DNA of 64,000 bases from Streptomyces sp. NBC_00250 (GTDB lineage: Bacteria > Actinomycetota > Actinomycetes > Streptomycetales > Streptomycetaceae). Location of the stretch: NCBI RefSeq assembly GCF_036192275.1, contig NZ_CP108089.1:47823-111822 (forward strand). Direction: 5' to 3'. Shown in pieces: positions 9,284 to 49,535 of the stretch (position 1 is the first letter of the stretch; each line of letters opens with the position of its first letter). The position numbers and the translations under genes were made by a program. Below the pieces are notes generated by a model that did not search any database, was not told the origin of the DNA, and worked only from the letters and a program-made list of their open reading frames with translations.

Positions 9284-9482
9284 GCCGCGCCTTTCATGTA
9301 ATCCATGGGGATAAATGTACGAGGGGAATCCGGCGGTCGAGGAACCGTCGAGTAACTGGCCGCTCAGCCGTGTGCGGGGGAGTGTCGGATTACCGTTCCA
9401 TGAGCGCCCGTTCACGAGGGGATGAGCGCTCCGTGGTTAGGATCTGGGCGTTTCGGTCAGGGCACCGTCAAAAAGGGGTGAC

Positions 9483-11072
9483 ATGAATAGCGTCTCTGCT
9501 GATCCGCAGCTCGCTGAACCGTATCTGCTCGGTTGGCTGGCCTCGCTCGGTCTCGACGTCGATTACGTACGGGCCGAAGGAAATACTCTGTATTACCTCG
9601 GTGCGAACGGCGCGGAGATTCCCGTACTCGATTTCGCGGGCGGGTACGGTTCCCTGATCCTGGGCCACAACCATCCGGAGATCACGGCGTACGCGCAGCG
9701 GCTCCTCGCGTCCCAGACGCCGGTGCACGCGCAGTTCTCCCGCCACCCGTACGCGAACGACGTCGCCGTCGCGCTCAACCGGATCCTCCAGCGCGAGCTG
9801 GGCACGGAGGAGAACTACTCCGCGATCTTCGCCAACACCGGTGCCGAGGCGGTGGAGGCGGCCGTCAAGCATGCCGAGCTCGACCGCGGGCTCCGGCTCG
9901 CCGAGCTCCGCGAGCAGCTCGACGCGAACCTGGCCGCCGCCCGCGCGGCGGTCGCGGACGGGGCGGTCGTCGCGGCGGAGGCGTACCGCCTCGTCGGTGT
10001 GGACGCGCAGGCCGGAACGGCCGGATTCGAGGCGCTGGCGGCGGCGGTCGCAGGGCACAACGCCGAGCAGACCGGCCGGCCGCCGGTGCTCCTGACCCTG
10101 GAGGGCGGGTTCCACGGCAAGCTGGTCGGCAGTGTCCAGCTCACCCACAACGAGGGCTACCGGGCCCCCTTCGCCGCCCTGGCGACGCCCGCCCGGTTCA
10201 TCCCCGCGGACAGCCCGCAGGCCCTCAAGGCCGTCCTGGAGAGCGAGCGGGCGACCGTGTTCGACCTGGTCGTCGAGGGCGGCACGGTGTCGGTGGCCGA
10301 GCGGAACTCCCCGGTGTTCTGCGCCTTCGTCCTGGAGCCCATCCAGGGCGAAGGCGGGATCCGCGTCCTCTCCGAGGAGTTCGCCCAGGAGATCCAGCGG
10401 GCCTGCGCCGAGGTCGACTGCCCGGTCATCGTCGACGAGGTGCAGAGCGGAATGGGCCGGAGCGGCGACTTCCTGGCGAGTTCGGCGCTGGGCCTGCGCG
10501 GCGACTACTACGCGCTCGCCAAGAGCCTGGGCGGCGGCATAGCGAAGACGTCCGTCATGCTCACCCGCCAGTCCCGCTACCGCTCCGAGTTCGAGCTCGT
10601 GCACAGCTCCACCTTCGCGAAGGACGCACTCTCGTGCTTCATCTCGCAGAAGGTCCTGGAGATCCTGGAAGCCGATGACGGGGCCGCGTACCGCACGGTC
10701 CGGGAGCGCGGCGCGAAGCTGCTCGGGATGCTGGAGGGCGTGCGCGCCGACTTCCCCGACGTGGTGAAGGACGTGCGGGGGCGGGGCCTGATGCTCGGCC
10801 TGGAGTTCCACGACCAGTCCGGCTCCGGCTCCGAGGCCATCCGCGAGAGCGCCCCGCTGCTGGGGTACACGGTCGCCGGGTATCTGATGCGCGAGCACCG
10901 GATCCGTACGTTCCCGACCGCGAGCGCCGTGAACACGCTCCGGTTCGAGCCCTCGCTGTACCTGACCGACGCCGAGATCGACCAGCTGGAGCGGGGCCTG
11001 CGGGGCGCCGCCCAGCTCTTCCGCACCCACGACGGGGCCGGTCTCACCGGCACGGCGGCGGACGCGGCCTGA
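9483..11072 (+). CDS. Class III (PLP-dependent) aminotransferase, probable polyketide-aldehyde aminase
   Basis: 529 residues with an AAAGGGGTGAC ribosome site before ATG 9483. Fold-type I aminotransferase landmarks are FANTGAEAVEAAVKHA (PLP phosphate region), VIVDEVQSGMGRSG with Asp318 (pyridine N contact) and YALAKSLGGGI with Lys347, the probable PLP lysine. It is about 70 residues longer than common class III enzymes because of an Ala-rich insertion around residues 130-190. In clusters with a terminal thioester reductase, such as coelimycin, streptazone and argimycin, an omega-transaminase of this family converts the released aldehyde to the primary amine. The reductase domain at the end of the third PKS makes that role the best prediction here. 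The amino donor is unknown. Confidence 0.9.
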   Translation: MNSVSADPQLAEPYLLGWLASLGLDVDYVRAEGNTLYYLGANGAEIPVLDFAGGYGSLILGHNHPEITAYAQRLLASQTPVHAQFSRHPYANDVAVALNRILQRELGTEENYSAIFANTGAEAVEAAVKHAELDRGLRLAELREQLDANLAAARAAVADGAVVAAEAYRLVGVDAQAGTAGFEALAAAVAGHNAEQTGRPPVLLTLEGGFHGKLVGSVQLTHNEGYRAPFAALATPARFIPADSPQALKAVLESERATVFDLVVEGGTVSVAERNSPVFCAFVLEPIQGEGGIRVLSEEFAQEIQRACAEVDCPVIVDEVQSGMGRSGDFLASSALGLRGDYYALAKSLGGGIAKTSVMLTRQSRYRSEFELVHSSTFAKDALSCFISQKVLEILEADDGAAYRTVRERGAKLLGMLEGVRADFPDVVKDVRGRGLMLGLEFHDQSGSGSEAIRESAPLLGYTVAGYLMREHRIRTFPTASAVNTLRFEPSLYLTDAEIDQLERGLRGAAQLFRTHDGAGLTGTAADAA

Positions 11073-11080
11073 CGCGCGAC

Positions 11081-11127
11081 GGTCCCCGGGCCGGCCGGTA
11101 CGCGATGCACCGGCGACCCGGGGACCG
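11081..11127. terminator. Large hairpin between convergent genes
   Basis: CGGTCCCCGGG (11081-11091) pairs perfectly with CCCGGGGACCG (11117-11127). Inside the loop GCCGGT (11095-11100) can pair with ACCGGC. It lies 8 bp after the aminotransferase stop. Confidence 0.7.
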
Positions 11128-11131
11128 GCAT

Positions 11132-11176
11132 GTCGGCGGGGTCGGCGGGGTCGGCGGGGTCGGCGGGGTCGGTGGG
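11132..11176. repeat. Five tandem copies of a 9-bp unit
   Basis: GTCGGCGGG is repeated four times exactly and once with one change, between the aminotransferase terminator and the 47-residue gene. No function is apparent. Confidence 0.8.
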
Positions 11177-11242
11177 ACGCGCCGGGCGCCCGGGTTCTGG
11201 GCGCGTCGACGCAACGCGCCGGCCGCCCGGGAGACCCGTACG

Positions 11243-11386
11243 TCAGTCCATGCCCCGCACGATGTGGGGCTCGCCGGGCTCCTCGTCCGCGCCGGCGAGC
11301 TGGAGCGGCGGGTAGCGCAGGACGTGCGCAAGGCCCTTGGGGAAGGCGTGGCCGAGGTCGGCGTCGTACGTGTCGTCGCGCATCAT
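11243..11386 (-). CDS. Small 47-residue protein of unknown function, coupled to the PPTase gene
   Basis: The short frame starts ATG ATG at 11386, preceded by a strong GGAGGAC site, and overlaps the phosphopantetheinyl transferase stop by 4 bp. The acidic product starts MMRDDTYDADLGHAFPKGLA and ends with GEPHIVRGMD. It has no membrane segment, signal peptide or cysteine motif, and I do not recognise a family. It is the last cistron of the five-gene operon 14638-11243. The ribosome site and coupling argue that it is translated. It does not look like an MbtH-type partner, which would be about 70 residues with conserved tryptophans. Confidence 0.7.
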   Translation of the reverse strand: MMRDDTYDADLGHAFPKGLAHVLRYPPLQLAGADEEPGEPHIVRGMD

Positions 11387-12120
11387 GTCCTCCGGTCGTC
11401 GAATGGAACGGCCCCGCCGCTCGCCGGCCCGGTCCGGGCGGACGTCGTGGACCGCACGGGCGGCCGCAGACCGATGGCGGTCACCACCAGCCCGTTGCCC
11501 GTACGCCACCGTCCGTCGAAGGCGGTGATCCGTACGCCGTCCACCACCGGTCCGGGGACCAGGAGTTCGGCGCGGAACGTGCCCGCCACGGGATCGGGTG
11601 TGATCACGGCCTCGTCGAAGTCCAGAGGCCGCCCGGTGAGCGGGAACCAGGTCTTGTAGACGCTCTCCTTGGCGCTGAACAGCAGCCGGTCCCAGGAGAC
11701 GGCCGGCCGCCGCGCGGTGAACTCGCGCAGCCAGACCCGCTCCTGGGGGAGCGATATCAGCTCCAGGATGTCCGGCGAGGGCAGTGGCGCGTTCGGCTCG
11801 GCGTCGCAGCCGACCGCCAGCAGATCCGTGGCCCGGGCCACGGCCGCCGCGCGGTAGCCCTGACAGTGCGTCATGCTGCCGACGACGCCCTCCGGCCACC
11901 GGGGCGCTCCGCGCGCGCCGGGCAGCAGCGGCGCCGGCGGCAGCCCGAGCCGGGCCAAAGCCTGCCGGGCACAGGCCCGGACCGAGGCGAACTCCCTGCG
12001 GCGCCCGGCGACGGCTCCCGCCACCACGCGCTCCTCCTCGGGGAACAGGCCGGGCGGCCCGGGAGGGTCGTGGAAGAGCTCGGCGGTGACGACCGGCGCG
12101 GGGAGCAGCGCGGCGATCAC
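11383..12120 (-). CDS. 4'-phosphopantetheinyl transferase (EntD/Sfp superfamily)
   Basis: 245 residues from a GTG at 12120 that overlaps the metallophosphoesterase stop (GTGA). Landmarks are SMTHCQGYRAAAVARATDLL, then VGCDAEPN (Mg2+/CoA-binding Asp and Glu), then FSAKESVYKTWFPLTG, the WxxKEAxxK-type motif of Sfp/EntD enzymes, then LDFDEAVI. It transfers the phosphopantetheine arm of CoA to the conserved Ser of carrier domains. Here the obvious substrates are the five ACPs of the PKS. It is encoded in a translationally coupled operon with the type II thioesterase, so ACP priming and ACP cleaning are co-expressed. Confidence 0.92.
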   Translation of the reverse strand: MIAALLPAPVVTAELFHDPPGPPGLFPEEERVVAGAVAGRRREFASVRACARQALARLGLPPAPLLPGARGAPRWPEGVVGSMTHCQGYRAAAVARATDLLAVGCDAEPNAPLPSPDILELISLPQERVWLREFTARRPAVSWDRLLFSAKESVYKTWFPLTGRPLDFDEAVITPDPVAGTFRAELLVPGPVVDGVRITAFDGRWRTGNGLVVTAIGLRPPVRSTTSARTGPASGGAVPFDDRRT

Positions 12121-13256
12121 GGCCGTTCTCCGGTGGGAGCGTCGGTGGGAGCGTCGGTGGGAGCGTCGGTGGGTGCGTCGGTGGGTGCGTCGGTGGGAGC
12201 GTCGGTGGGAGCGTCGGTGGGAGCGTCGGTGGGAGCGTCGGCGGGTGCCTCGGCGGCGAGGTCTGTCGGGGCCTCGGCCGGGGCCCCGGCGGGTGCTTCG
12301 GCGGGCGCTTCGGGCGGGATCCCTGTCGGGGCCGGGGCCGAGAAGCCCGGCAGGACCCGTGGAGCGTGGCCGGGGTCGGCTCGACGGCGCCATTCGCGCG
12401 GGTAGCCGAGGGACACCTCGTAGTGCGGTATCCCCTGCTTCCGTATCAGCCGGGGGATGTGCAGATGCCCGTAGACGACGGCGGCGGCCCGGTACCGGAC
12501 CGGCCAGTCGGCGGTGGCCTCCGTACCGCACCACAGGGCGAAGTCGGGGAAGCGCAGCACCTCCGTGGGCTCGCGCACCAGGGGGAAGTGGTTGACGAGG
12601 ACGGTCGGCAGGTCGGCGGGGAGCGCGTCGAGGCGCTCGGCGGTCCGCCGGAGGCGGGCCCGGCACCAGTCGGCGATGCCGGCGTACGGGTCGGGGTGGA
12701 GCAGGATCTCGTCGGTCGCGACGACCCCCGCTTCGTCCGCGAGCCGCAGCGCCTCCTCGGCGTTGCGGACGCCGGGGCGCCGGAAGCTGTAGTCGTACAG
12801 GAGGAACAGCGGCACGATCACCGCGGGGCCGCCCGCCCCGTGCCACACCGGGTAGGGGTCCTCGGGGGTGGTGACGCCCAGGCTCCGGCAGAGCTGGACC
12901 AGGGCGTCGTACCGGGCGGCGCCGCGTGTCTGGACCGGGTCGTCCGGAGGGGTCCACAGTTCGTGGTTGCCCGGCGCCCAGATGACCTTCCGGAACCGGC
13001 CGGCCAGCGTGGACAGCGCCCATTCGATGTCGGCCATGTGCTCCCCGACGTCGCCCGCGACGAGCAGCCAGTCCTCGTCCGAGGAGGGCCGCAGCGCCTC
13101 GACGACCGCCCGGTTCTCGTCGTAGCGCACATGGAGGTCGCTGAGGGCCAGCAGACTGCCGGGGGAGGAGTGGCCGTGGGGGTGGGCTTCGGCGCGACCC
13201 TCGGGGTGGCCCTTGGGATGACCTTCGGGATGGCCCTCAGGAGGTGGCGGTAGCAC
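12117..13256 (-). CDS. Calcineurin-like metallophosphoesterase with repetitive tail
   Basis: 379 residues. All metal-binding motifs are present in order: LSDLHVRYDEN (D-x-H), VAGDVGEHMAD (GD), WAPGNHELW (GNHE), LVNHFPLV (H) and VYGHLHIPR (GHxH). The first 28 residues are rich in Gly-His-Pro (HPEGHPKGHPEG). The last 75 or so are a low-complexity Ala-Pro-Glu/Asp tail built from APTD repeats, encoded by a 12-bp tandem repeat at the DNA level. It is predicted to hydrolyse a phosphomonoester or diester in the cytoplasm. It is sandwiched between the thioesterase (6-bp gap) and PPTase (overlap) genes. ACP hydrolase or CoA-derived phosphate removal are conceivable roles, but the sequence does not decide. 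Confidence 0.88.
   Translation of the reverse strand: MLPPPPEGHPEGHPKGHPEGRAEAHPHGHSSPGSLLALSDLHVRYDENRAVVEALRPSSDEDWLLVAGDVGEHMADIEWALSTLAGRFRKVIWAPGNHELWTPPDDPVQTRGAARYDALVQLCRSLGVTTPEDPYPVWHGAGGPAVIVPLFLLYDYSFRRPGVRNAEEALRLADEAGVVATDEILLHPDPYAGIADWCRARLRRTAERLDALPADLPTVLVNHFPLVREPTEVLRFPDFALWCGTEATADWPVRYRAAAVVYGHLHIPRLIRKQGIPHYEVSLGYPREWRRRADPGHAPRVLPGFSAPAPTGIPPEAPAEAPAGAPAEAPTDLAAEAPADAPTDAPTDAPTDAPTDAPTDAPTDAPTDAPTDAPTGERP
12132..12251. repeat. Ten tandem 12-bp units encoding APTD repeats
   Basis: The unit GGTGGGAGCGTC is repeated ten times in register with the reading frame of the metallophosphoesterase gene, with a few single-base variants. Copy number should be prone to slippage, changing the protein tail by four residues at a time without a frameshift. 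Confidence 0.9.
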
Positions 13257-13262
13257 GCCCGA

Positions 13263-14012
13263 TCACGCCGTGGAGCCCGCGACGAGCAGGCCGTCCGTGA
13301 TGATGTCGCGGACCTCGTCCGTACGGTCGTCCAGGTAGAAGTGGCCACCGGGCAGGATCCGCAGTTCGAAGTCGCCGCTGGTGTGGTCGTGCCAGGCCGC
13401 GGCCTCGTCGACGGCCACCACCGGGTCCGCGTCGCCGATCAGCACGGTGACGGGGGCGGCCAGCGGGACGCCGCCGCTCCAGCGGTACGCGCCGAGGGCG
13501 CCGTAGTCCGCGCGCAGCGCCGGCATCACCATGGCGAGCAGCTCGGGGTCGTCGAGCACCGCGTGGCCGGTCCCGCCGAGACCGCGCACCGCCCTGAGGA
13601 TCTCCGTGTCGCTGCCGAGCCGGTCGTGCGGGCTGGGCAGCGGCGAGGGCGCGCCGCGTCCGGAGAGGAACACCCGGCAGGGGCCCGGCCGCCCGGCGGC
13701 GACCAGACGACGGGCCGTCTCGTACGCGAGGACCGCCCCCATGCTGTGGCCGAAGAAGGCGTAGGGCTCGTCCGTCAGCGGAACCATGGCCTCGGCGAGG
13801 GCGTCGGCGTGGGCGTCGACGCTGCGGTACGGCTCCTCCCGCCGCCGGTCCTGACGGCCGGGGTACTGCACGGCGAGCACGTCGACGTGCTCGCCGAGCG
13901 CCCGCGACAGGGGAATGAACGCGCTGGCCGCGCCGCCCGCGTGCGGGAAGCACACCAACCGCACCGCGCCCTCACGGGCCGCTCCGAAGCGCCTGAACCA
14001 CGTGCTATCCAC
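13263..14012 (-). CDS. Type II (editing) thioesterase
   Basis: 249 residues from a GTG at 14012 that overlaps the TetR stop by one base, with AAAGGGAC upstream; this is the usual TEII length. Alpha/beta-hydrolase landmarks are RLVCFPHAGGAASAFIPL, then YPGRQDRRREEPY, then FFGHSMGAVLAYE with nucleophile Ser90, then IGDADPVV (acid) and LPGGHFYL (His). Such enzymes hydrolyse aberrant acyl groups from PKS ACPs, and counterparts accompany many modular PKS clusters (ScoT in the coelimycin cluster). There is no integrated thioesterase in this PKS, since chain release is reductive, so this protein should act only in editing or starter clearance. Confidence 0.93.
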   Translation of the reverse strand: MDSTWFRRFGAAREGAVRLVCFPHAGGAASAFIPLSRALGEHVDVLAVQYPGRQDRRREEPYRSVDAHADALAEAMVPLTDEPYAFFGHSMGAVLAYETARRLVAAGRPGPCRVFLSGRGAPSPLPSPHDRLGSDTEILRAVRGLGGTGHAVLDDPELLAMVMPALRADYGALGAYRWSGGVPLAAPVTVLIGDADPVVAVDEAAAWHDHTSGDFELRILPGGHFYLDDRTDEVRDIITDGLLVAGSTA

Positions 14013-14638
14013 TACGTCCCTTTCAGCGGGCCGGTACCCGGTGGCACCAGACGGGGGAGCATGAACTGCCAGAACCGGCCGAGCCGTTGCCGGGAGAGCC
14101 AGGTGGGATCCTTGCGGCCGAGGGCCTCGAAGCCGACGGTCGACGCCGCGACGACGGTCACGACGTCCTCCGGCTCGGTCCCGTCGGCGAGCGCGCCGAT
14201 CTTCGCCGCGTGCCGCAGCGTGCCGTCGATCCAGTCCCGCCACTGGCCGTGCAGGTCGACCGGGCTCGCCCAGGACGGTTCGCAGCCGAGCGTGAACCCG
14301 GCGCGCAGGATGACGTCGCTGTTCAGCCCGTCGAAGAGCTGGTGGGAGGTCTCGACGAGGTTCTGGATCAGGTCGACGTCACCATGGGATCCACGGCCCT
14401 CGGATCCGTCCGGCGCCGGACCGGTGATACACCACAGCCGCTGGACGGCCGCCTGCTCGATGGCCTCCGCGAGGGCGCTCTTGTTGGCGAAGTGGAAGTG
14501 CAGGGCACCGCTGCTCACTCCGGCCCGGTGCGAGATGGCGGAGAGGGAGGCCGATACGAAACCGTCGGTGTCGAAGATCTCCGCCGCGGATCGGAGCACC
14601 GTCGCTCGTGTACGGACAGCGCGTTCCTGTTTAGCCAT
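14012..14638 (-). CDS. TetR-family regulator of the gamma-butyrolactone-receptor type (ScbR/ArpA-like)
   Basis: 208 residues from ATG 14638. The N-terminus MAKQERAVRTRATVLRSAA and the helix-turn-helix SLSAISHRAGVSSGALHFHF, followed by ANKSALAEAI, are the signature of the ArpA/ScbR/BarA family. The C-terminal ligand domain ends WLSRQRLGRFWQFMLPRLVP. It heads a five-gene operon with the thioesterase, metallophosphoesterase, PPTase and the small protein. A perfect ACCG-N6-CGGT site of the family's operator type lies 62 bp upstream of its start. With a butyrolactone synthase homologue encoded at 43207-44115 and a sibling regulator at 44233-44898, it should be part of a local autoregulator circuit. 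Whether it binds ligand or is a pseudo-receptor cannot be told from sequence. Confidence 0.9.
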   Translation of the reverse strand: MAKQERAVRTRATVLRSAAEIFDTDGFVSASLSAISHRAGVSSGALHFHFANKSALAEAIEQAAVQRLWCITGPAPDGSEGRGSHGDVDLIQNLVETSHQLFDGLNSDVILRAGFTLGCEPSWASPVDLHGQWRDWIDGTLRHAAKIGALADGTEPEDVVTVVAASTVGFEALGRKDPTWLSRQRLGRFWQFMLPRLVPPGTGPLKGT

Positions 14639-14699
14639 GTGCACTCCGTGGATGCCTGGGGGCGCTGCTGACGGCCCCTCAAGAACGTCCAGCGTAATG

Positions 14700-14715
14700 A
14701 ACCGCAACGGCGGTT
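14700..14715. promoter_or_regulatory. ARE-like operator upstream of the first receptor gene
   Basis: AACCGC-AACG-GCGGTT is a perfect inverted repeat, containing ACCG-N6-CGGT at 14701-14714. This matches the spacing of the autoregulatory elements bound by ArpA/ScbR-type receptors. It lies between the TetR start (14638) and the SnoaL genes and probably mediates autoregulation. Confidence 0.65.
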
Positions 14716-14832
14716 TTCTATCGGCCCGGATCGAGTTCGTCTTGAAAAGGCCACCCGTCGGACGGCCCGGAATCCGGAGCCTGGCCTGCCCGAGCGGGGG
14801 GAAGGATCGGACAGGCCAGGAGAAGGGGGGAC

Positions 14833-15258
14833 CTACTCCGGGAGCAGGGTGCCGGCGACCGGACGGTCGATGGACATGAGCCAGCGGCCGTCCTCGCCAC
14901 GACGCAGTACGTCGGTGCAGTTGCCTTCGATACGGACGGGCTCGCCCTCGGGCCCCGTGCTGTCGACGCTGAACTTCACGCCGATCAGGGCCACGTCGCC
15001 GGCCACGTACGCGTGCGTGATCTCGGCCTTGAGGAACGGCTTCGGCGCGAGGAACTCCTTGAAGAACTCCAGGCGCTCCTTCCCGGTGAGCGGGGAGCCG
15101 GAGAAGTTCGATATCGCGTCCTCGCGGTAGAGGAGGTCGAACAGGGCTCCGTCACCGGAATTGAAGAGCTGGATGAAGATCTCGTTCTGAGTATCCGCGT
15201 CCGCGGTCAGATCGGGGTTGTCGACGTCGAAGTCGACCGTGATACCGGGAATGCTCAT
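14833..15258 (-). CDS. SnoaL-like (NTF2-fold) protein 1
   Basis: 141 residues from ATG 15258; an in-frame GTG at 15273 would add five residues. It has the SnoaL/ketosteroid-isomerase-like pattern: TQNEIFIQLFNSGDGALFDLLY, SNFSGSPLTGKERLEFFKEFL, GDVALIGVKFSVD and TDVLRRGEDGRWLMSIDRP. Members of this fold act as aldol cyclases, isomerases or oxygenase-like enzymes in polyketide pathways, but the catalytic residues differ too much to assign one. It is clearly related to the neighbouring protein 2, so the two arose by tandem duplication. It is transcribed away from the PKS genes, 87 bp downstream of protein 2, and probably cotranscribed with it. Confidence 0.82.
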   Translation of the reverse strand: MSIPGITVDFDVDNPDLTADADTQNEIFIQLFNSGDGALFDLLYREDAISNFSGSPLTGKERLEFFKEFLAPKPFLKAEITHAYVAGDVALIGVKFSVDSTGPEGEPVRIEGNCTDVLRRGEDGRWLMSIDRPVAGTLLPE

Positions 15259-15344
15259 GGTCTGCGACACCACTTTCTTGGGTCTGGGGGTGCCTCCGCG
15301 CCGGGCACGGAGACGCGCGGGTTACTGCTGCTCGCCGTACGGGG

Positions 15345-15725
15345 TTACTTCTTCTCGCCGTACGGCTCGTCGATGGCGTAGCGCCAGTTGCCGTCCGCAC
15401 CCTTGCGCAGCACGTCGACCCCGACGCCCGTCAGCAGCTCGGGGATGCCCGCGTCGTCCACGGTGGCGATGGACCAGTCCACGATCAGGAGCGCGGTGTC
15501 TCCGGTCTCGAAGACCTGGCGCGGCTTGGCGCTCATCTTCGGCGAGCGGGCCAGGAACTCCTTGACGGCGTCCTTGCGGGCCTGGCCCGTGAGCGGCTTG
15601 CCCGGTTCCCAGACCGCGACGGCCTCGTCGGTGTACATCTCGTTCACGGCGTCGGCGTCGCCCGCGTTGAAGGCCGCCTCGTACAGCGCGGTGTGCTGGG
15701 CGACATCGCTGGTCAGATTACTCAT
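15345..15725 (-). CDS. SnoaL-like (NTF2-fold) protein 2
   Basis: 126 residues from ATG 15725, with AGGAACGG upstream. The pattern matches protein 1: [52 protein letters not shown] and [22 protein letters not shown]2-fold proteins form small dimeric cones with a hydrophobic pocket. Here it might cyclise or isomerise the amine or imine formed from the released polyketide, but no assigned catalytic Asp/His pair can be pointed to. Its start faces the first PKS gene across a 271-bp divergent promoter, so it is likely controlled with the PKS. Confidence 0.82.
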
Positions 15726-15901
15726 GGTGAGACCGTTCCTGCTTTCTTCCGGCATGACACCCGGGAATTCGAGGAGTTTCACGCAGATCTGTCCAGAACG
15801 TAACCGGCCAACCTCACCGGCCGCCCACCGACAAGTAACGGACCGTCCACCCCGTTGCCGAATCGGGCGGTTACCCGTGCATGACCGGGTGTTGAGAAGA
15901 A

Positions 15902-15919
15902 ACAGGTCGGCCGGTCTTA
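15902..15919. promoter_or_regulatory. Imperfect ARE-like site upstream of the PKS genes
   Basis: ACAG-GTCGGC-CGGT (15902-15915) keeps one intact half-site (GGCCGGTCTTA) of the ArpA-type operator and the same N6 spacing as the two perfect copies. It lies about 80 bp before the first PKS start. This is weaker evidence than for the sites at 14700 and 44173. Confidence 0.35.
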
Positions 15920-15996
15920 GGGTCGAAAATGCGGGGTTCCATATCCGGGATACTCAGGCCGCTTCGATATCAGTCAGGAAAGGGCAGTCGAGCGCC

Positions 15997-29934
<13,938 letters not shown>

Positions 29935-30006
29935 CCCCCAGGGCACGCGCCGCCCACGGCGCGCACACGGCAATCGGACACACCACCACACGGGAGCTGA
30001 ATTCAC

Positions 30007-33000: not shown

Positions 33001-35499
33001 GTCAGGGCCGGCACTCCGGACGACACCGGACGGCACTGCTTGTGCCTGTACTCCCGCCCCGACGACTTCGACGCGCCGTGGACCATGCACGCCGAGGGCT
33101 GGTACCTCACGGAGGAGCCCGAGGTCGCCGCCTCCCTCGCCTGGGACGACGACGCGACGGGCCGGACCACCGAGATCCAGCTCCCCGACGGCCTCCAGAC
33201 CGACGCCGGACGGTACGGGCTGCACCCGGTCCTGCTGCAGGCGGCCCTGCCCGTCCGCCCCGAGGACCCGGCCGCCGGTACGGTCCCGGTCCCCGCCGAC
33301 TGGTACGGGGTACGGCTCCACGCCACCGGGGCGACCGCCGTCAAGGCGCGGGTCACGGAGATCGACGAGGGCGCCTTCTCGCTCCAGCTGGCCGACGCGG
33401 CCGGCGACCTGGTCGTCTCGGTGGAGTCCATCGTCTTCCGCGACATGCCCAACGAGCAGTTCAGGGCCGCCGTGGGCGGCGACAGCACGGGACGCGAATC
33501 GCTCTTCCACGTCGACTGGACGCCCACCACCCTGCCGGAGCCGGCCGAACCGCTCACGTGGGCCGTCCTGGACCCGGACGGCACCGGCGGGCAGAACGGC
33601 ACCGGCGAGAACAGGTACGCGCACCCCACCGAGGTGGCCGCGGCCGTCGCCGCCGGCACCCGCGTCGATGCCGTCCTGCTGCCCTGGCCCCCCGCGGATC
33701 CCGGCGCCGACCAGGCCGCCGCCACGCACACGGCCACGCGGAAGACCCTCGCGCTGGTACGGGAGTGGCTGGCCGACGAGCGCCTTGAAGGGACCCGGCT
33801 CGTGGTGGTCACCTCGGGCGCGGTCGCCACCGACGACGGGGAGGACGTCACCGACCTGGCGGGCGCCGCCGTCTGGGGCCTGCTCCGCTCGGCCCAGTCG
33901 GAAGCCCCCGACCGCATCGTCCTCATCGACACGGACACGGACACGGACACGGACACGGGCACGGGCACGGGCAGCGGTACGGGTACGGGTACGGGCGCCG
34001 GCACCGAGGGGACGCTCTCCCTCCTCGCCGCCGGTGAACCCCAAGCCGCCCTGCGCGACGGCAAGACGCTCCTGCCCCGCCTGCGACGAGTCCCCGTCAC
34101 CGACAAGCCCGCCGGCCGACCCCCCGTCTGGAAGCACGGCACCGTCCTCGTCACCGGCGGCACCGGCACCCTCGGCGCCGAGTTCGCCCGCCACCTCGTC
34201 GCCGAGCACGGCGCCACCCGTCTCCTCCTGCTCTCCCGTACCGGGGAACAGGCCGACGGCACGGCAGGGCTCCTGGACGACCTGCGGGGCATCGGCGCCC
34301 ACGTCACCGTCGCCACCTGCGACGTCGCCGATCGCGACGCGCTCGCCCGGGTGCTCGCGGGCATCCCGGAGGAGCACCCGCTGACCGCGGTCGTGCACAC
34401 CGCCGGCGTACTCGACAACGGACTGCTCCCCGCGCTCACCGACGACCGGCTCACCGACGTGCTGCGGCCCAAGGCGGACGCGGCCTGGCACCTGCACGAG
34501 CTGACCCGTCACCTGGAACTGGAGGCGTTCGTGACGTTCTCCTCCACCGTGGGCGTCCTCGGCGGCCCCGGCCAGGCCAACTACGCGGCGGCCAACGCCT
34601 TCCTGGACGCCCTCGCCGCCCACCGGCGCGCCCAGGGCCTGCCGGCGACCTCCATCGCCTGGGGCCTGTGGCAGCTCGGCGGCATCAACGCCCACCTCGC
34701 CGAGAGCGACCTCAACCGCTTCGCCCGCGACGGCTTCCGGCCGATCGCCCGCGTCGAAGGCCTCTCCCTGTTCGACCGGGCCACCGCCGACGGCCGGGCC
34801 GCCCTCGTCGCGACCCCGGTGGGCGTGACCGCCGTACGGGCCCAGGCCCGGATCCCCGCCCTCCTGAGCGAGCTCGCGGCCCTGCCGGGCCGCCGCGTCG
34901 CCCGGTCCGGGCCCGCCGACCACGCCGCCGACCCGGCGGCCGGCCTCGCCGCACGACTGGGCGAGCTGAGCGAGGTGGAGCAGGAGCAGTTCCTCCTCAC
35001 CCTCGTGCGCACCGACGTCGCCGCGGTCCTCGGCCGTACCGACGCCGAGTCCATCGCCCCGGAACGCGCCTTCCAGGACCTCGGCTTCGACTCGCTCACC
35101 GCGGTCGACCTGCGCAACCGGATCGGCACCGCCACCGGCGTCAAACTTCCCGCCACCCTCGTGTTCGACCACCCCACCCCGGCGGCCCTCGTCGCGTTCC
35201 TGCGGGACCGCCTCACCCCCCAGGCACCCGACGCCCGCCAGGCGCTCCTCGACGAACTGGACGAGGTGGAACGGAAGCTGGCCGCCGTGTCCCAGGGCGA
35301 CCAGGACCGGTCCGCCGTCTCCGCCCGCCTCCGTGCCCTGCTGTCCCGGGTCGAGGGGGCCGACGGTACGGCCGCGGTGCCCGGCGCCGGCACGTACGAC
35401 CCGTCCGACGCGGCCGACGATTCCGACGCCATCGAGTCGGCCTCCGTCGACGAGCTTCTCAGCTTCATCGACAACGAACTCGGCAGCTCCACCCCCTAG
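30007..35499 (+). CDS. Type I modular PKS: module 3 (KS-AT-degenerate DH-KR-ACP)
   Basis: 1830 residues from GTG 30007, 72 bp after the first PKS. The N-terminal coiled coil ([20 protein letters not shown]) is a docking helix. KS Cys206; AT Ser655 with HAFH at 752 (malonyl type). The DH keeps His949 in [10 protein letters not shown], but the position of the catalytic Asp is Gln1078 ([10 protein letters not shown]), and roughly 45 residues including the YGxxFQGL region are missing compared with the other modules. KR has GGTGTLG and Tyr1526, so reduction should work; its loop reads LDN. ACP Ser1696; C-terminal docking region [11 protein letters not shown]. Predicted result: chain extension to C8 with the hydroxyl retained, becoming C5-OH in the final product. 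Confidence 0.95.
31545..32570. repeat. Near-identical AT segment, copy 2 (module 3)
   Basis: Matches module 4 from 37259 onward, including the KS-AT linker, and matches the loading AT from 31699 onward. Same atypical GT-rich codons as the other copies. Confidence 0.9.
33928..33999. repeat. Hexanucleotide repeat inside the module 3 KR region
   Basis: Five GACACG units followed by GGCACG and GGTACG variants encode a DTDTDTDT...GTGTG stretch. Equivalent positions in module 4 (39716-39760) encode a DADPDADP stretch, and module 2 has a related low-complexity insert at 28425-28490. Confidence 0.85.
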
Positions 35500-35734
35500 G
35501 TCGCGCCCGGTATGCCCCACCCGGAAAGCCCCACCCGGCCCGCGATGCCTGGCCGGCGATGCCGGCTCGCGAAGCCCGGCTCGCGATGCCCGGCCCTTCG
35601 ATGCCCGGCATGACCTAGTGCCCGCTCCGCCGTCGCCCCCGGCGGCGGACGGGTCCCAGAGCCGGTCCGGCGGCCCCCTTCCGCCGGACCGGCCCCCTGC
35701 CACTCAGCCTTCGCCCGAGGAGAGCACGAACCCG

Positions 35735-38700
35735 ATGTCCAACCCGTCGAACGAAGAGAAGCTGGTCGAGTACCTGAAGCGGGTCACGGTCGACCTGCAG
35801 AAGGCGCATCGCAAGATCGCCGCACTGGAGGCCGCCGACTCCGAGCCGATCGCCGTCGTCGGCATGGCCTGCCGCTTCCCCGGAGGAGTGGCCTCCCCCG
35901 ACGACCTGTGGCGACTTGTCGACTCCGGCACCGACGCCATCACCGACTTCCCCACCGACCGCGGCTGGGACCTGGAGCGCCTCTACGACCCCGACCCGGG
36001 CCGCGCGGGCACCTCCTACACCCGCAAGGCCGGCTTCCTGCACGACGCCGCCCTCTTCGACGCCGGGTTCTTCGGGATCTCGCCCCGCGAGGCCCTCGCC
36101 ATGGACCCGCAGCAGCGCCTCCTCCTGGAGACCTCGTGGGAGGCGTTCGAGCAGGCGGGCATCGACCCCGACACCCTGCGCGGAAGCCGTACGGGCGTCT
36201 TCGCGGGCATCATCGAGCAGAGCTACCTCGGCCTGGACGGACCCGAGGAGTTCGAGGGCTATCTGCTGACGAGCAAGCTCAGCAGCGTCGCCTCCGGCCG
36301 GGTCGCCTACAGCCTCGGTCTCGAAGGCCCCGCCCTCTCCGTCGACACCGCCTGCTCCTCCTCGCTCGTCGCCCTCCACCTGGCGATCCAGTCGCTGCGC
36401 TCCGGCGAGTCCGACCTGGCCCTGGCCGGCGGTGTCACGGTGACCGCGACGCCGGGCGGATTCGTCGACTTCTCCCGGCAGAGCGGCCTGGCGCCCGACG
36501 GCCGGATCAAGTCCTTCTCCGCCGACGCGGACGGCACCTCGTGGTCGGAGGGCGTCGGCATGCTCCTCGTCGAGAAGCTGTCCGACGCCCGCCGCAACGG
36601 CCACCAGGTCCTGGCCGTCATCCGGGGCTCGGCCGTCAACCAGGACGGTGCGTCGAACGGTCTGACCGCCCCCAACGGCCCCTCGCAGGAGCGGGTCATC
36701 CGCCAGGCCCTCGCGGACGCGGGCCTCACCACCGCGGACGTCGACGTCGTCGAGGCGCACGGCACCGGGACCCGGCTCGGCGACCCGATCGAGGCACAGG
36801 CCCTGCTCGCCACCTACGGCCAGGGCCGCCCGGAGGGCCGCCCGCTCTACCTCGGCTCCCTCAAGTCGAACATCGGCCACACCGTCGCCGCCGCCGGTGT
36901 CGGCGGCGTCATCAAGATGATCCAGGCCATGGAACACGGCGTGCTGCCCCGCACCCTGCACGTGGAGAGCCCCACGCCGATGGCGGACTGGGACTCCGGC
37001 GCCGTCGAGCTGCTCACCGAGGCCCGGGACTGGCCGGCCACCGAGCGCGCCCGTAGGGCCGCCGTCTCCGCCTTCGGCGTCAGCGGCACGAACGCGCACG
37101 TGATCATCGAGCAGCCGCCCGTGGAGGAACCCGCGCAGGCCGAGACGGCCGAACTGCCCGTGGTTCCCTGGCTGCTGTCGGGCCGGACGCCGGACGCCCT
37201 GCGCGAGCAGGCCCGCCGCTTCCACGACCACGTCTCGGCCGACGCCACCCACTCCCCCCTGGACATCGGTTTCTCCCTGGCGACGGGGCGGGCGTCCCTG
37301 GACCACCGAGCGGTGGTGACGGGCCGGGACCGTGGCGAGCTCCTCGCCGGGGTGCGAGCGCTGGCCGAGGGTGGGACGGCTCCGGGCCTGGTGCACGGTG
37401 AGCGGGCCGGGGGCCGTACGGGCTTCCTGTTCACGGGTCAGGGGGCTCAGCGTGCCGGAATGGCGCAGGAGCTGTACGCGTCGTTCCCGGTGTTCGCGGC
37501 GGCGTTCGACGAGGTCTGCGGCCTTTTCGATGCGGCGGTGGGTGGTTCTCTGCGTGAGGTGATCGTCTCGGGCGAGGGCCTGGACGAGACGGGCTGGACG
37601 CAGCCGGCGCTGTTCGCGGTCGAGGTCGCACTGTTCCGTCTGGTGGAGTCGTGGGGTGTGCGTCCGGACTTCGTGGCGGGGCATTCGATCGGTGAGATCG
37701 CGGCCGCGCACGTGGCGGGCGTGTTCTCCCTTGAGGACGCGGTGCGTCTGGTGGTGGCGCGTGCCGGTCTGATGCAGGCGTTGCCGCGTGGTGGTGCGAT
37801 GGTCGCCGTGGAGGCGACGGAGGCCGAGGTCGTCGGGCTTCTGGAGGGCCGGGTCGCGATCGCGGCGGTCAACGGTCCCCGCTCGGTCGTCGTATCCGGC
37901 GAGGAGACGGCCGTTCTCGAAGTCGGCCGCAAGGTCGAGGAGCTGGGCGGTCGCATACGCCGCCTGACGGTGAGCCACGCCTTCCACTCTCCGCTCATGG
38001 ACCCGATGCTGGCCGAGTTCAAGGCCGTCGCCGCCCAGCTGACGTACGAGGCTCCCCGTATCGCGGTGGTCTCCACGGTCACCGGCAAGGTCGCGACGGG
38101 CAAGGAGCTCCGTTCGGCCGACTACTGGGCCGACCAGGTCCGCGGTACGGTCCGCTTCGCCGACGCCGTCGAGACGATGGTCTCCCAGGGCGTCACCGCG
38201 ACCCTGGAACTCGGCCCCGACGGCGTCCTGTCCGCCCTCGCGGCCGAGCTCGTCCCCTCCGCCGTCGCCCTGCTGCGCCGCGACCGGCCCGAGGCCGACA
38301 CGGCCGTCGGCGCGCTCGGCCGCCTCCACCGGCACGGCGTCCCCGTCGACTGGGCGGGGTTCTTCGCCGGCACCGGTGCCCGCCGGGTCCCCCTGCCCAC
38401 GTACGCCTTCCAGCACCAGCGCTACTGGGTGGAGTCGGCGGCCGTCGCCCCCGACGCCGCCGGGCTCGGCATGCGGTCGACCGGCCACCCGCTGCTCGGC
38501 GCCGCCGTCGTCCTCGCGGGCGCCGACCGGACCGTGTTCACCAGCACCTTCTCCCCCCGAACCCTTCCGTGGCTCGCCGACCACACCGTCTCCGGTTCCG
38601 TGGTGCTGCCGCCCGCCGCGCTCGTGGAGCTCGTCGTCCGGGCCGGGGACGAGTCGGGGGCGACCACCCTCGACGAACTCGTCCTGGACACCCCGCTCGT

Positions 38701-41700
38701 CCTCGGCAAGGGCGGCACCCACCAGCTCCAGGTCGCCGTGGGCGCCCCCGACGCCACCGGCCGCCGCCCGGTCACCGTGCACGGCCGCCCCGACGACCCC
38801 GACGCGACGTGGACCGCGCACGCCCACGGCACGTTGAGCGTCACCGCCCAGGGCCCCGGGTTCGAGCCGGTCGAGTGGCCGCCCGCCGACGCCGAGGAGA
38901 CCGCCCTCGAAGAGCTGTACGCCGGTCTCGCCGACGCGGGCCTCGCGTACGGCCCGGCGTTCCAGGGCCTCACCGCCGCCTGGCGCCGTGGCGACGAGCT
39001 CTTCGCCGAGGTCGCGCTGCCCGAGCAGGCGACCGGCGCCGAGGACTTCACCCTGCACCCCGCGCTCCTCGACGCGGCGGTACGGCCCCTCCTGCCCGCC
39101 GTACCGGAGGGTGCTCCGCTCGCCGGGCACTGGCGCGGCGTACGGCTGCACGCGACCGGCGCCACCGCGCTCCGGGTCCGTATCGCCCCGGGGGCCGGTG
39201 GCGGCGCGCGCGTCGAACTCGCCGACCCGTCGGGGCAGCCCGTCGCCGTCGTCGCCGAGACGGCGGTGCGCGGTGTCGACGACGGCGCGTTCGCGACGGC
39301 CGCCGGTCGGCACGACGACGCGCTGTTCCACATGGGCTGGACGCCGCTGGGCGTGCGGCCGGCGGGGGAGACCCGTCCGGCCACGCTCGGCGACGAGGGC
39401 GACTTCACGAGCCCCGGCGAGGTGGCCGCGGCCGTCGCCGCCGGACGGGAGGTACCCGTCGTCGTCCTCCGTGTCCGGCCGGAACCGGCGGGCTCGCTGC
39501 CCGGTTCGGTCCACGCCACGACGGAGAAGGCACTCGGCCTGGTGGGTGAGTGGTTGGCCGACGAGCGTCTTGAAGGGACCCGGCTCGTGGTGGTCACCTC
39601 GGGTGCGGTCGCCACCGCCGACGGGGAGGACGTCACCGACCTGGCGGGCGCCGCCGTCTGGGGCCTGCTCCGCTCGGCCCAGTCCGAGCACACCGGCCGC
39701 ATCGTCCTCGTCGACGCCGACCCCGACGCCGACCCCGATGCCGATCCGGACACCGGCCACGTCACCGGCCTGGTCACGGCCCTCGCCGTCTCCGGCGAAC
39801 CCCAGGCAGCCCTGCGCGCCGGACAGGTGTACGTCCCCCGGCTCGCGAGGGCCGTCGTACCCGCTCCCGGCACCGCCCCGGCCTGGAACCCCGACGGCAC
39901 GGTCCTGATCACCGGCGGCACCGGCAGCCTCGGCGCCCTCTTCGCCCGCCACCTCGTCACCGCGCACGGGGTGCGTCACCTCCTGCTCACCAGCCGCAGC
40001 GGCCCGGCCGCCGCCGGTGCGAAGGAGCTGTCGGCCGAACTGACCGCCCTGGGCGCCCGGGTCACCGTCGCCGCCTGCGACACGGCCGACCACACGGCGC
40101 TCGCCGAGCTCCTCGACACGATCCCCGCCGACCTCCCGCTCACCGGCGTCGTACACGCCGCCGGCATCCTGGACGACGGCCTCCTCACCACCCTCACCCC
40201 CGAGCGGCTGCACGCCGTACTGCGGCCCAAGGTCGACGCCGCCTGGAACCTGCACCGCCTCACCCAGGACAAGGACCTCACCGCCTTCGTCCTCTTCTCC
40301 TCGATCGCCGCGGTCGTCGGCGGCCCCGGCCAGTCCAACTACGCCGCCGCCAACCAGTTCCTCGACGCCCTCGCCCAGCACCGGCACGCGCGCGCCCTGC
40401 CCGCCACCTCGGTCGCCTGGGGCCTCTGGGAGCAGTCCGGCGGCATGAGCGGCCACCTCAGCGAGACCGACCTCGGCCGCATCGCCCGCAGCGGCTTCCG
40501 CCCCGTCCCCCAGGCCCAGGGGCCCGCGCTGCTCGACCGGGCGATCGCCCTCGGACACCCGGCCGTCGTCGCGACCCCGCTGGACATCGCGGTCCTGCGC
40601 GAACAGCCCGGCCGCATCCCGGCGGTCCTCACCGGGCTCGCCCCCGCCCCGCTGCGCCGGGCCGCCGCCGGGGAGGGCGCGGCCGCGACCGCCTCGCTCG
40701 CCGACCTGGTCGCCGGGCTCGACGGGCCCGAGCGCGAACAGGCCGTCCTGGACGCGGTGCTCGAACTCAGCGCGGCCGTACTCGGCCATGCCGACACCTC
40801 CGGCATCCAGCCCGGACAGCCGCTGACCAAACTCGGCTTCGACTCGCTGACCTCGGTCGAGCTCCGCAACCGGCTGAGCGCCCTGGTCGACTCCAAGCTG
40901 CCCGCGACGCTGGTCTTCGACCACCCCACGCCCGCCGCCCTCGCCGCCTTCGTCTCAGGCCAGCTCGCCGGCGGGCCGGGTGCGGACGCCGCCCCGGCGC
41001 TCCCCGCCGTGGACTACGCGGTCGAGGTGCGCCTCGCCGACGACATCCGCCCGGCGGTCGAGGTCGTCACGTCGGCGGCGGAGCCGCGGTCGATCCTGCT
41101 GACCGGAGCCACCGGCTTCCTCGGCGCGTTCCTGCTGCGCGACCTGATGCGGACGACCACGGCGACGATCCACTGCCTGGTCCGCGGCGCCGACCAGGAC
41201 GAGGCGATGAAGCGGCTGCGGACCAACATGGAGTGGTACCGGCTGTGGGACGAGGTCGACGAGAGCCGGCTCTCGCCCGTCCTCGGCGACCTGGCCGAGG
41301 AGCGGCTCGGCCTCACGGAGGAGCACTTCGACGACCTGGCGCGGACGGTGGACGCCGTCTACCACAACGGCGCCCGGGTCCACTGGCTGCACCCGTACAC
41401 GGCGCTGCGCGACGCCAACGTCCGCGGCACCGAGGAGGTGCTGCGCCTGGCAGCCCGTCACCGCACCGTCCCCGTCCACTACGTGTCCACCGTCGGCGTC
41501 TTCGACGGGGTACGGGAGGAGGGCGTCCCGCTCAAGGTGACCGACCCGACCGGCCCCGCCGAGGCCCTGCCCAGCGGCTACCTCCAGAGCAAGTGGGTCG
41601 CCGAGCAGCTCATCGGCACCGCCCGCGACCGGGGGCTGCCCGTCTCCGTCTACCGCGTCGACGTGATCTCCGGCGACACCCGGACCGGCGCCTGCCAGAC

Positions 41701-42196
41701 CCGCGACTTCGTCTGGCTCAGCCTCAAGGGCATCCTGCAGTCGGCGGCGGTGCCCGCCGGTACCAGCGGCCGGTTCCACCTGCTGCCCGTCGACTACGTC
41801 AGCGCCGCCATCACCACCCTCTCCCGGCAGCGGGACACCGCCGGCCGTACCTTCCACCTGTTCAACCAGAGCTCCCTCAGCCTCGCCCAGTGCGTGGAGA
41901 ACCTGCGGGCGTACGGGTACGCGCTGGACGAGCGGGACCGGCGGAGCTGGCACGAGGAGGTCGGCGCGAGCAGCGACAACGCGCTGCGCCCGCTGCTCCA
42001 CGCCTTCGAGATGATGACCTCCGACACCGACGGCTTCTACCCGCCGATCGACACCTCGGAGACCCTCGCGGCCCTCGCGGGGACCGGCGTCGACTGCCCG
42101 CCGCTGACCGCCGAGCTCTTCGCCCGGTACGTCGACTTCTTCGTCGAGGTGGGCCACTTCCCGCCCGTGCCGGACCGCGAGCCGGCGCGCGTGTGA
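35735..42196 (+). CDS. Type I modular PKS: module 4 (KS-AT-DH-KR-ACP) with terminal thioester reductase
   Basis: 2153 residues from ATG 35735 with a GAGGAGAG site. The N-terminal docking helix reads [21 protein letters not shown] Cys207; AT Ser651 with HAFH at 748; DH His950 and Asp1113 with YGPAFQGL intact; KR GGTGSLG and Tyr1536 with an LDD loop (B-type); ACP Ser1704. Residues from about 1785 to the end are a thioester reductase of the SDR superfamily: [14 protein letters not shown] (NADPH), then [15 protein letters not shown], then [12 protein letters not shown], then YLQSK with Tyr1949 and Lys1953. No thioesterase follows, so the chain should leave as an aldehyde. The gap after the second PKS gene (35500-35734) holds only short GATGCCCGGC-like repeats. 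Confidence 0.95.
37259..38170. repeat. Near-identical AT segment, copy 3 (module 4)
   Basis: Same sequence family as copies 1 and 2. Identity to module 3 starts already in the linker (37259), while divergence resumes near 38170, inside the C-terminal part of the AT. Confidence 0.9.
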
Positions 42197-42364
42197 CGGG
42201 ACGTCAGGGCCGGGATCCGACGCGCACATGACGGGAGGTCAGGGCCGGGGCCCGACGAAGTGCCCCGGCCCGGACCTCTTGACCCACCCTTGACCTGACA
42301 TACCTTCCCTTTACCTCGGGGGAAGACGGCAGGTGACGGACTGCCAGATGGCAGCATCGGCGCC

Positions 42365-43135
42365 ATGAGCGATACGGGTGGGTTACTGCAGGACAAGGTC
42401 ATTCTGGTCACGGGGGCGAGCAGCGGAATCGGTGCGGCGGCCGCGTACCTCTTCGCCCGCGAAGGCGCGTCGGTGGTCCTCGCCGCGCGCCGGGAGGAGA
42501 GGCTCACCGCCTTCGTGGCGGAGCTGACGGCCAAGGGGTTCGAAGCCTCGTCGGTGGTGTGCGACGTGACGCGCGCCGAGGACGCGCGGCGGGCGGTCGC
42601 ACACGCGACGGAACGTTTCGGCAGGCTTGACGGCGCTTTCAACAACGCGGGCATCGGCGGGGACCAGGCCCCCCTCCACGAGATGGGGGACGAGGTCTAC
42701 GACACCATCCTCGACACCAATGTGCGGGGACTGTGGAACTGCCTGCGCGCCGAGGTCGGCGCGATGCTCGCGAGCGGCGGCGGCGCCATCGTCAACAACA
42801 GCAGCGTGGGCGGCCTGGTGGCGATAGCCACCGCCGCCCCTTACGTGGCGTCCAAGCACGCGGTGGTCGGCTTCACCCGCGCCGCGGCCGACGAGTACGC
42901 GAGGCAGGGCATCCGCGTGAACGCGGTGGCACCCGGTCCGACCCGCAGCGAGATCACGGTCGGCTGGTTCGCGCGCAACCCCGGTCTGGAGCAGACGGTC
43001 GAGGCGGCCACCTCCCAGCGGCGCACCGCCGCACCCGAGGAGGTGGCCGAGGCCGCGGCCTGGCTGCTCAGCGACAGGTCCTCGTACGTCACCGGTGTCG
43101 TCATGCCGGTGGACGGCGGCTACCTCAACCACTGA
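42365..43135 (+). CDS. Short-chain dehydrogenase/reductase (SDR), candidate C5-alcohol oxidase
   Basis: 256 residues, classical SDR: LVTGASSGIGAAAAYLF (cofactor), NNAGIGG, IVNNSSVGG and the catalytic YVASK with Tyr160 and Lys164, then the C-terminal VVMPVDGGYLNH. The Ala-Ala-Arg-Arg after the second beta strand (LAARREERL) favours NADP(H). It follows the last PKS gene by 168 bp on the same strand and converges with the AfsA gene. With the module 3 dehydratase disabled, the chain should carry a 5-hydroxyl. Oxidation by this enzyme would give the ketone needed to close a six-membered cyclic imine with the terminal amine. The enzyme class is certain; that assignment is inference. Confidence 0.92.
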   Translation: MSDTGGLLQDKVILVTGASSGIGAAAAYLFAREGASVVLAARREERLTAFVAELTAKGFEASSVVCDVTRAEDARRAVAHATERFGRLDGAFNNAGIGGDQAPLHEMGDEVYDTILDTNVRGLWNCLRAEVGAMLASGGGAIVNNSSVGGLVAIATAAPYVASKHAVVGFTRAAADEYARQGIRVNAVAPGPTRSEITVGWFARNPGLEQTVEAATSQRRTAAPEEVAEAAAWLLSDRSSYVTGVVMPVDGGYLNH

Positions 43136-49529: not shown

Positions 49530-49535
49530 CAGCCG

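Follow-up and report, generated by a model that had tools for sequence, protein, structure and literature searches.

The argimycin P cluster of Streptomyces argillaceus (arp), the streptazone E cluster of Streptomyces sp. MSC090213JE08 (stz) and the coelimycin cluster of Streptomyces coelicolor (cpk) are the closest described systems to a set of biosynthetic genes carried by Streptomyces sp. NBC_00250 in a 64,000-nucleotide stretch of DNA, hereafter the window, which comprises bases 47,823-111,822 of the 111,822-base contig NZ_CP108089.1 (C2). The arp cluster encodes a three-protein polyketide synthase (PKS) with a KSQ loading module and a terminal thioester reductase (TR), an ArpN-type aminotransferase, two NTF2 cyclases, a flavin reductase, an acyl-CoA-dehydrogenase-like (ACAD-like) enzyme, an imine reductase, a type II thioesterase, a SARP and a TetR regulator (PMC5300972, PMC5820336). 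Returning arpN to a deletion spanning arpO to arpHII restores nigrifactin in S. argillaceus (PMC5300972), which means that the first ring requires no gene of that block other than arpN. According to argimycin mutants, the ACAD-like enzyme, imine reductase and both NTF2 proteins act ahead of second-ring closure or in that step itself (PMC5820336). The stz cluster, as described in the same two papers, has a comparable PKS, the NTF2 cyclases StzE and StzF, tailoring oxidoreductases and StzK. The cpk cluster shares the PKS, TR and aminotransferase logic and adds scbA/scbR control, an extra acetyl-CoA carboxylase alpha subunit, a putative histidine kinase (PMC8062868, PMC11632069) and the flavin oxidases ScF, CpkH and CpkD; its overlap with arp is limited to the PKS, the aminotransferase and the type II thioesterase (PMC9733639), and it thus lacks the NTF2 pair. 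Argimycin and coelimycin, together with streptazone E as told in the argimycin papers, form a C12 branch, with six ketide units in arp and stz and a 12-carbon chain in cpk.

For smaller chains, a type I PKS cluster has been named as that of streptazolin in Streptomyces sp. A4420 (PMC11127301), and the streptazolin producer FORM5 makes C10 pentadienyl piperidines alongside it, 2-pentadienyl-4-hydroxy-1-piperideine being among those tentatively reported, while its streptopyridines incorporate up to five acetate units (PMC4077424). No description of a five-unit cluster was found in the literature searched, which was mostly non-subscription; absence from print is not claimed. The [4.3.0] piperidine alkaloids and their biosyntheses were reportedly reviewed by Wormer and Poulsen in 2021. 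The NBC_00250 cluster very probably builds a small C10 piperidine alkaloid of the streptazone/abikoviromycin group. We consider it likely to be a pentaketide cluster of the argimycin, streptazone and coelimycin kind, in which reductive release, transamination and piperideine closure would be followed by second-ring steps. From domain content, motifs, synteny and the presence or absence of genes, all directly observed, we infer the chemical steps, the regulation and the product.

The assembly line is encoded by three PKS genes. PKS1 (15997-29934, forward strand; 4645 amino acids from an ATG start) comprises a KSQ-acyltransferase (AT)-acyl carrier protein (ACP) loading module and modules 1 and 2, each with ketosynthase (KS), AT, dehydratase (DH), ketoreductase (KR) and ACP. 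PKS2 (30007-35499, forward; 1830 amino acids) is module 3, a KS-AT-DH-KR-ACP module with a dead DH and an LDN-type KR, and PKS3 (35735-42196, forward; 2153 amino acids) holds module 4, of the same layout with a doubtful DH, followed by the TR. Together they contribute five KS, five AT, four DH, four KR, five ACP and one TR, all in open frames (Pfam, best E 2.1e-264, and motif checks). The loading KS carries the active site DAAQSSS of the KSQ type and the four extension KSs read DTACSSS, all five ATs have the malonyl-type HAFH motif, and in place of a terminal thioesterase stands the TR (PF07993, E 9.6e-74), with GATGFLG and YLQSK (YxxxK) motifs and 8v1x as its nearest solved structure (612 bits). 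Since KSQ loading, four extension modules and a TR occur with malonyl-type ATs only, five ketide units and a C10 aldehyde are well supported; five KS and five AT domains set the locus apart from the six-unit C12 pattern of argimycin and streptazone E and place it in the pentaketide group. The original prediction of this architecture, with a class III aminotransferase and a short-chain dehydrogenase/reductase (SDR), is confirmed in every component by Pfam and motifs across 9483-43135. A lone thioesterase gene at 13263 was considered for chain release and ruled out, as it is of type II and PKS3 terminates in the TR.

Indeed, this is not a chance pattern, because gene order largely recurs on the linear plasmid NZ_CP108239.1 of S. 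exfoliatus NBC_00077, with PKSs 84.6-85.4% and aminotransferases 92-93% identical. To widen the comparison, the best 80 of 219 stretches matching the aminotransferase were taken and 39 of those loci were searched for TR positions, yielding 12 complete clusters which, with the window and the S. exfoliatus plasmid, form a convenience sample of 14 with all modules covered. Loci were left out mostly for having TR and aminotransferase on different or short contigs; also excluded were Streptomyces sp. ISL-94, whose module region looks collapsed, Streptomyces sp. D2-8 and Kitasatospora SUK 42, represented by their last two modules only, and the partial S. griseoluteus, S. omiyaensis and S. apocyni. 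Eleven of the 14, including the window and S. abikoensis, are five-unit clusters, and three are six-unit (R302, S. cyaneochromogenes and S. viridochromogenes A).

Module 3 is where the chain would acquire the functional group on which the ring would close. In its DH, Gln replaces the catalytic Asp, the GYxYGPxFQG segment is lost, and the domain is about 34 residues shorter than the module-2 DH between the HAEG and AEV/TEI landmarks; S. abikoensis has Asn at the same catalytic position. The KR has LDN for LDD, with Lys, Ser and Tyr intact. Likewise, argimycin KR4 has Asn for the same Asp beside an inactive DH, and a keto group has been inferred there (PMC5300972; the arp DH also PMC5820336). 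Across the 14 clusters, LDD was seen in no penultimate module: the KR is absent from four (S. sedi, S. physcomitrii, S. seoulensis and the hexaketide R302), reads xxN in nine (S. lushanensis, NBC_00083, S. viridochromogenes A and B, S. abikoensis, S. cyaneochromogenes, S. exfoliatus, S. termitum and the window) and gave no match to the motif pattern in S. caniscabiei. S. cyaneochromogenes additionally has His for the KR Tyr, and S. viridochromogenes B lacks its module-1 KR. The penultimate reducing loop of these relatives thus appears as a dead DH with an LDN KR, as a KR only, or as a bare KS-AT-ACP module. The dead DH, the LDN motif, the failure to see LDD in any of the 14 penultimate modules and the absence of the KR from four of them argue that module 3 probably leaves a C5 carbonyl on the chain, and with a ketone already in place an oxidase would be unnecessary. 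Collapsed assembly was at first suspected behind the bare module in S. seoulensis, S. sedi and S. physcomitrii, but its recurrence in all three of these complete clusters and in the partial D2-8 locus speaks against this; the aminotransferase-tree forks that bear on a single or repeated origin are weak.

The C2-C3 position is less clear-cut. The DH of module 4 still has the catalytic His and Asp but has lost LPFxW and reads DAAVR at the DxxxQ/H motif, whereas in S. physcomitrii, S. lushanensis, S. caniscabiei, S. viridochromogenes A, D2-8 and SUK 42 Glu or Gln replaces that Asp. Published accounts diverge on the final DH, which is called inactive for argimycin and active for streptazone E (both via PMC5300972 and PMC5820336). 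On these motifs, retention of a C3 hydroxyl is modestly favoured over a 2-ene, and the 2-ene of the original prediction becomes doubtful, even with His and Asp kept. The better prediction for the released chain is accordingly 3-hydroxy-5-oxodeca-6,8-dienal rather than 5-hydroxydeca-2,6,8-trienal, and a retained C3 hydroxyl would lead to the 2-pentadienyl-4-hydroxy-1-piperideine tentatively reported from FORM5.

First-ring formation would fall to the class III aminotransferase of the ArpN/CpkG type (9483-11072, forward; PF00202, E 4.7e-62). Its nearest solved structure is CrmG (5dds), and it is 63% identical to its counterpart at locus L049 of NRRL S-1022, an argimycin producer which served as the arp stand-in for sequence comparison; both fall in one tree. 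NRRL S-1022 is reported to make most argimycins P (PMC5300972). In NCBIfam, neither the aminotransferase nor the SDR passed the cut-off of any equivalog within the best 25 of 67 and of 228 families, respectively. Two NTF2/SnoaL-like cyclases on the reverse strand, a (14833-15273; PF12680, 96% to S. exfoliatus, weak matches only in the PDB) and b (15348-15755; 88% to an annotated S. exfoliatus NTF2 protein), indicate a second ring. An ArpK-like flavin reductase (8747-9283, reverse; PF01613, E 3.8e-38 on the open reading frame (ORF) 8747-9415) is 84% identical to that of S. exfoliatus.

Further genes of the arp type are found on the same plasmid outside the window, to its left. In C2 coordinates, these are two ACAD-like genes (34916-36100 and 41397-42581), an NmrA-like gene (36221-37063), a SARP gene (37264-39399), a RedAm-type imine reductase gene (39552-40493) and a PNPOx-like gene (40623-41111), all of them standing 5-13 kb from the window. 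Because plasmid genes, other genes and one insertion sequence (IS) intervene before the cluster core, the pathway role of this group rests on homology. The PNPOx-like protein is 95% identical to its S. termitum and S. omiyaensis homologs, the aminotransferase being less conserved (79-81%). Class, C10 size and a first ring made by reductive release, amination and imine closure are all upheld by the domain content and this arp-like gene set. The original prediction also held the tailoring set to be unlike that of the known clusters, which is mostly mistaken: the NTF2 pair, flavin reductase, ACAD-like enzymes, imine reductase and SARP make up the arp/stz set minus its flavin adenine dinucleotide (FAD) oxidase. 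It had passed over the NTF2 pair, the flavin reductase, the type II thioesterase, the phosphopantetheinyl transferase, the biotin carboxylase, scbA/scbR, the TetR-type regulator, the defective module-3 DH and the cluster genes left of the window.

Taken together, the following pathway can be proposed. The KSQ domain would decarboxylate malonyl-CoA to an acetyl starter for four extensions, in which modules 1 and 2 would set the 8,9 and 6,7 double bonds, module 3 would leave the C5 ketone and module 4 would reduce C3, the hydroxyl probably staying. Release of 3-hydroxy-5-oxodeca-6,8-dienal by the TR would allow the aminotransferase to convert C1 into an amine, which would close on C5 and so form 2-(pentadienyl)-4-hydroxy-1-piperideine. 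If arp is taken as the guide, the imine would then be reduced by the imine reductase encoded left of the window, and an ACAD-like flavoenzyme with the flavin reductase would make an epoxide. Its opening by the two NTF2 cyclases would close a five-membered second ring, with the bond placed C4-C8, and the outcome would be a C10 cyclopenta[b]pyridine with a two-carbon side chain, of the dihydroabikoviromycin/streptazone type.

The member of the arp/stz set that is missing deserves closer scrutiny. With the S. abikoensis homolog as query, no match to an ArpO/StzK-type FAD oxidase was found in the whole NBC_00250 genome at 1e-8; the same query matched six of six control genomes. Queries from S. exfoliatus and NRRL S-1022 returned only chromosomal matches of 54-112 residues, covering the FAD-binding part (best E 2.5e-8). 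The NRRL S-1022 protein (PF01593) has 483 amino acids, the length given for ArpO, and StzK is implicated in the formation of the epoxide of streptazone E (both in PMC5300972 and PMC5820336). S. abikoensis encodes its FAD amine oxidase (PF01593) between its NTF2 genes (L103:8267-9565), and in S. exfoliatus such a gene (PF01593; L150:4689-6134) is located on the right-hand side of an IS found after scbR and a SARP gene. These two enzymes are candidates for the reported amine-to-imine oxidation of abikoviromycin.

The SDR gene (42365-43135, forward; PF13561, E 8.9e-64, passing one NCBIfam subfamily cut-off) adjoins a ScbA-type gamma-butyrolactone synthase gene (43207-44115, reverse; NCBIfam NF041195 above cut-off on ORF 43207-44379) and a ScbR-type butyrolactone receptor gene (44233-44898, forward; NF041196 above cut-off). 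A close SDR (1e-85) is found in 44 of 295 Streptomyces genomes. At the 30 best loci, which include the window and a same-species genome and were inspected over a piece of about 3.75 kb each, a ScbR-like gene stands beside the SDR every time (26 at 56% or more, four at 38-43%), and scbA does so over most of its length in 25, with a partial ScbA-like match in three and none in two. Only 10 of these 30 genomes carry the aminotransferase (1e-130), the other 20 lacking it, and, seen from the other side, a close SDR (1e-85) is missing from 12 of the 20 genomes that have cyclase a. In some species a short-chain dehydrogenase reduces C6 of 6-dehydro-butyrolactones (PMC5735094). Since it adjoins scbR-like and scbA genes, mostly in genomes without the aminotransferase, the SDR is most likely a dehydrogenase of the gamma-butyrolactone pathway rather than an alkaloid tailoring enzyme, an assignment made by gene neighbourhood. 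It was accordingly rejected as a C5 dehydrogenase. The chain first envisaged, with a 5-hydroxyl that the SDR would oxidise, gives way to one with a ketone most likely left by module 3.

How well does the proposed pathway stand against other explanations? A route through 5-hydroxydeca-2,6,8-trienal, as for coelimycin, would require an active module-3 KR and module-4 DH, followed by transamination, C5 dehydrogenation and ring closure. The KR does retain its catalytic residues, the DH its His and Asp, and the SDR gene adjoins PKS3; moreover, the KR of CpkB module 4 and the DH of CpkC module 5 have been contrasted with the inactive arp domains (PMC9733639). What makes this route quite unlikely is the LDN motif, in a module that lacks a KR altogether in four of 14 clusters, together with an SDR that follows scbR/scbA and is missing from 12 of 20 cyclase genomes. 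On chemical grounds, an E-2-ene would be expected to hinder closure, as it should not form a six-membered ring unaided. Nor was a coelimycin-type flavin oxidase or isomerase seen among the Pfam-scanned proteins, cpk sequences not having served as queries. Very unlikely is a streptazolin cluster, in which the bicyclic amine would be N-carboxylated to a cyclic carbamate with the involvement of the plasmid biotin carboxylase. Streptazolin has been proposed to derive from a pentaketide with an N-carboxylated amine (PMC4077424), and the carboxylase gene belongs to a block common to S. exfoliatus (93%) and S. griseoluteus (94%). However, the enzyme shares 98% identity with the alpha subunit encoded on the chromosome, comparable to AccA1 (in cpk) and AccA2 of S. 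coelicolor, so that malonyl-CoA supply is the simpler role, and the scanned proteins include no carbamoyl-transfer domain, for which no direct search was made.

A decayed or silent cluster, yielding only monocyclic pentadienyl piperidines or nothing, is unlikely as well. It would account for the transposases at 4578-5669 and 45824-46993 and for an FAD oxidase that is not found here whereas S. exfoliatus has one, but the three PKS genes and the tailoring genes all have uninterrupted frames, and the same-species genome G025 keeps the aminotransferase, the SDR and cyclase a at 97-100%. Several observations nevertheless weigh against the C5-ketone pathway preferred here. No product is known for the cluster or its close relatives in the material examined. 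A full-length ArpO/StzK-type oxidase was not found in the genome, and because StzK is implicated in epoxide formation, ring fusion may not occur. The module-3 KR, with Lys, Ser and Tyr kept, may still work; a 2-ene is possible with the module-4 DH keeping His and Asp; and the SDR may be bifunctional.

Comparison with individual relatives helps to place the cluster. On the S. exfoliatus plasmid, the SARP and PNPOx genes lie between the aminotransferase and phosphopantetheinyl transferase genes, rather than left of the window as here, and genes for the FAD oxidase, a cytochrome P450, a ferredoxin and glutamate dehydrogenase follow to the right of scbR, with no match on the NBC_00250 plasmid (1e-6). 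The S. exfoliatus plasmid, classed as non-mobilizable in PLSDB, further encodes a second group of biosynthesis genes of the deoxysugar type (L150:18568-29306). S. abikoensis JCM 4002, which we take to be a producer of abikoviromycin, shares the KSQ, four modules and TR, the NTF2 pair, the SDR, scbA and scbR; identities range over 67-77% including SDR and TR (aminotransferase 67%, NTF2 proteins 67 and 74%), ScbA being only 37% identical, and it differs in the FAD amine oxidase gene between its NTF2 genes. With respect to arp as described (PMC5300972, PMC5820336), the locus has five units instead of six, lacks a full-length ArpO homolog and adds the scbA/scbR/SDR block, the biotin carboxylase and a histidine-kinase-like gene. 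Among 295 Streptomyces genomes, its own included, the aminotransferase (1e-130) occurs in 35 and cyclase a (1e-30) in 20. Five- and six-unit clusters are intermixed in the aminotransferase tree, where the window groups with S. exfoliatus, S. griseoluteus, ISL-94, S. omiyaensis and S. termitum in a well-supported six-member clade.

The remaining genes of the cluster are consistent with supply and control functions. On the reverse strand, 5751-7505 encodes the extra acetyl-CoA carboxylase alpha subunit (biotin carboxylase plus biotin carboxyl carrier protein, by Pfam), which probably supplies malonyl-CoA. A histidine-kinase-like ATPase (7608-8750, reverse; Pfam HATPase_c/HisKA_3 on ORF 7587-9101) adjoins the flavin reductase; no response regulator was seen at its side. 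Homologs of it occur in S. exfoliatus, S. termitum and S. omiyaensis. Also on the reverse strand are a 4'-phosphopantetheinyl transferase (11440-12120; 86% to the annotated S. exfoliatus enzyme), a metallophosphoesterase with a repetitive C-terminus (12117-13256; PF00149), the ArpT-like type II thioesterase (13263-13964; PF00975 on ORF 13263-14243, the start set by the S. exfoliatus match), a TetR-family regulator (14012-14638; 77% to an annotated S. exfoliatus TetR) and a small SARP-type regulator (44928-45749; 88% to an annotated S. exfoliatus AfsR/SARP regulator). The PT-rich tail of the metallophosphoesterase is built of short GTGGGAGCGTCG-like repeats (window 12130-12260). Production is probably controlled by SARP, TetR and the butyrolactone system (ScbA, ScbR and the SDR).

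The replicon itself is most likely a complete linear plasmid of 111.8 kb, because C2, one of two contigs in a 9.27-Mb genome, ends in 223-bp terminal inverted repeats (97.8% identical) with short hairpin-type palindromes at both tips and carries tap (window 47256-49529) followed by a tpg-like gene, the pair spanning 47256-50093. The two transposase genes on either side of the cluster core are of the DDE_5 type, and relatives of both (83% and 75%) lie beside the cluster on the S. exfoliatus plasmid too. At window 51551-53587, an extracytoplasmic function (ECF)-sigma-like protein shares its frame with a match to a phage-integrase SAM-like domain, which may reflect either a fusion or a pair of genes lying in the same frame. 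An aminotransferase 100% identical to that of the window is present in a Streptomyces sp. NBC_00572 record.

The cluster adds a new member to a known and widespread kind of pathway rather than establishing a new one. As for its product, the two ACAD-like, NmrA-like and PNPOx-like proteins, combined with the lack of an ArpO/StzK-type oxidase, allow the tentative suggestion of an alkaloid not described before, a C10 [4.3.0] piperidine related to abikoviromycin but with a reduced amine, and, at the same guarded level, the graded decay of the penultimate reducing loop may mean that the retained C5 ketone is a selected trait. For the C10 branch of these alkaloids, the locus provides a set of genes that sits on a linear plasmid and has relatives in several Streptomyces species, beside the C12 branch described in the papers cited. 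A C5 ketone provided by module 3 without an oxidase, as argued here from sequence, redirects the search for enzymes that form the rings, while the comparison of loci marks the adjacent SDR gene as one probably concerned with signalling.

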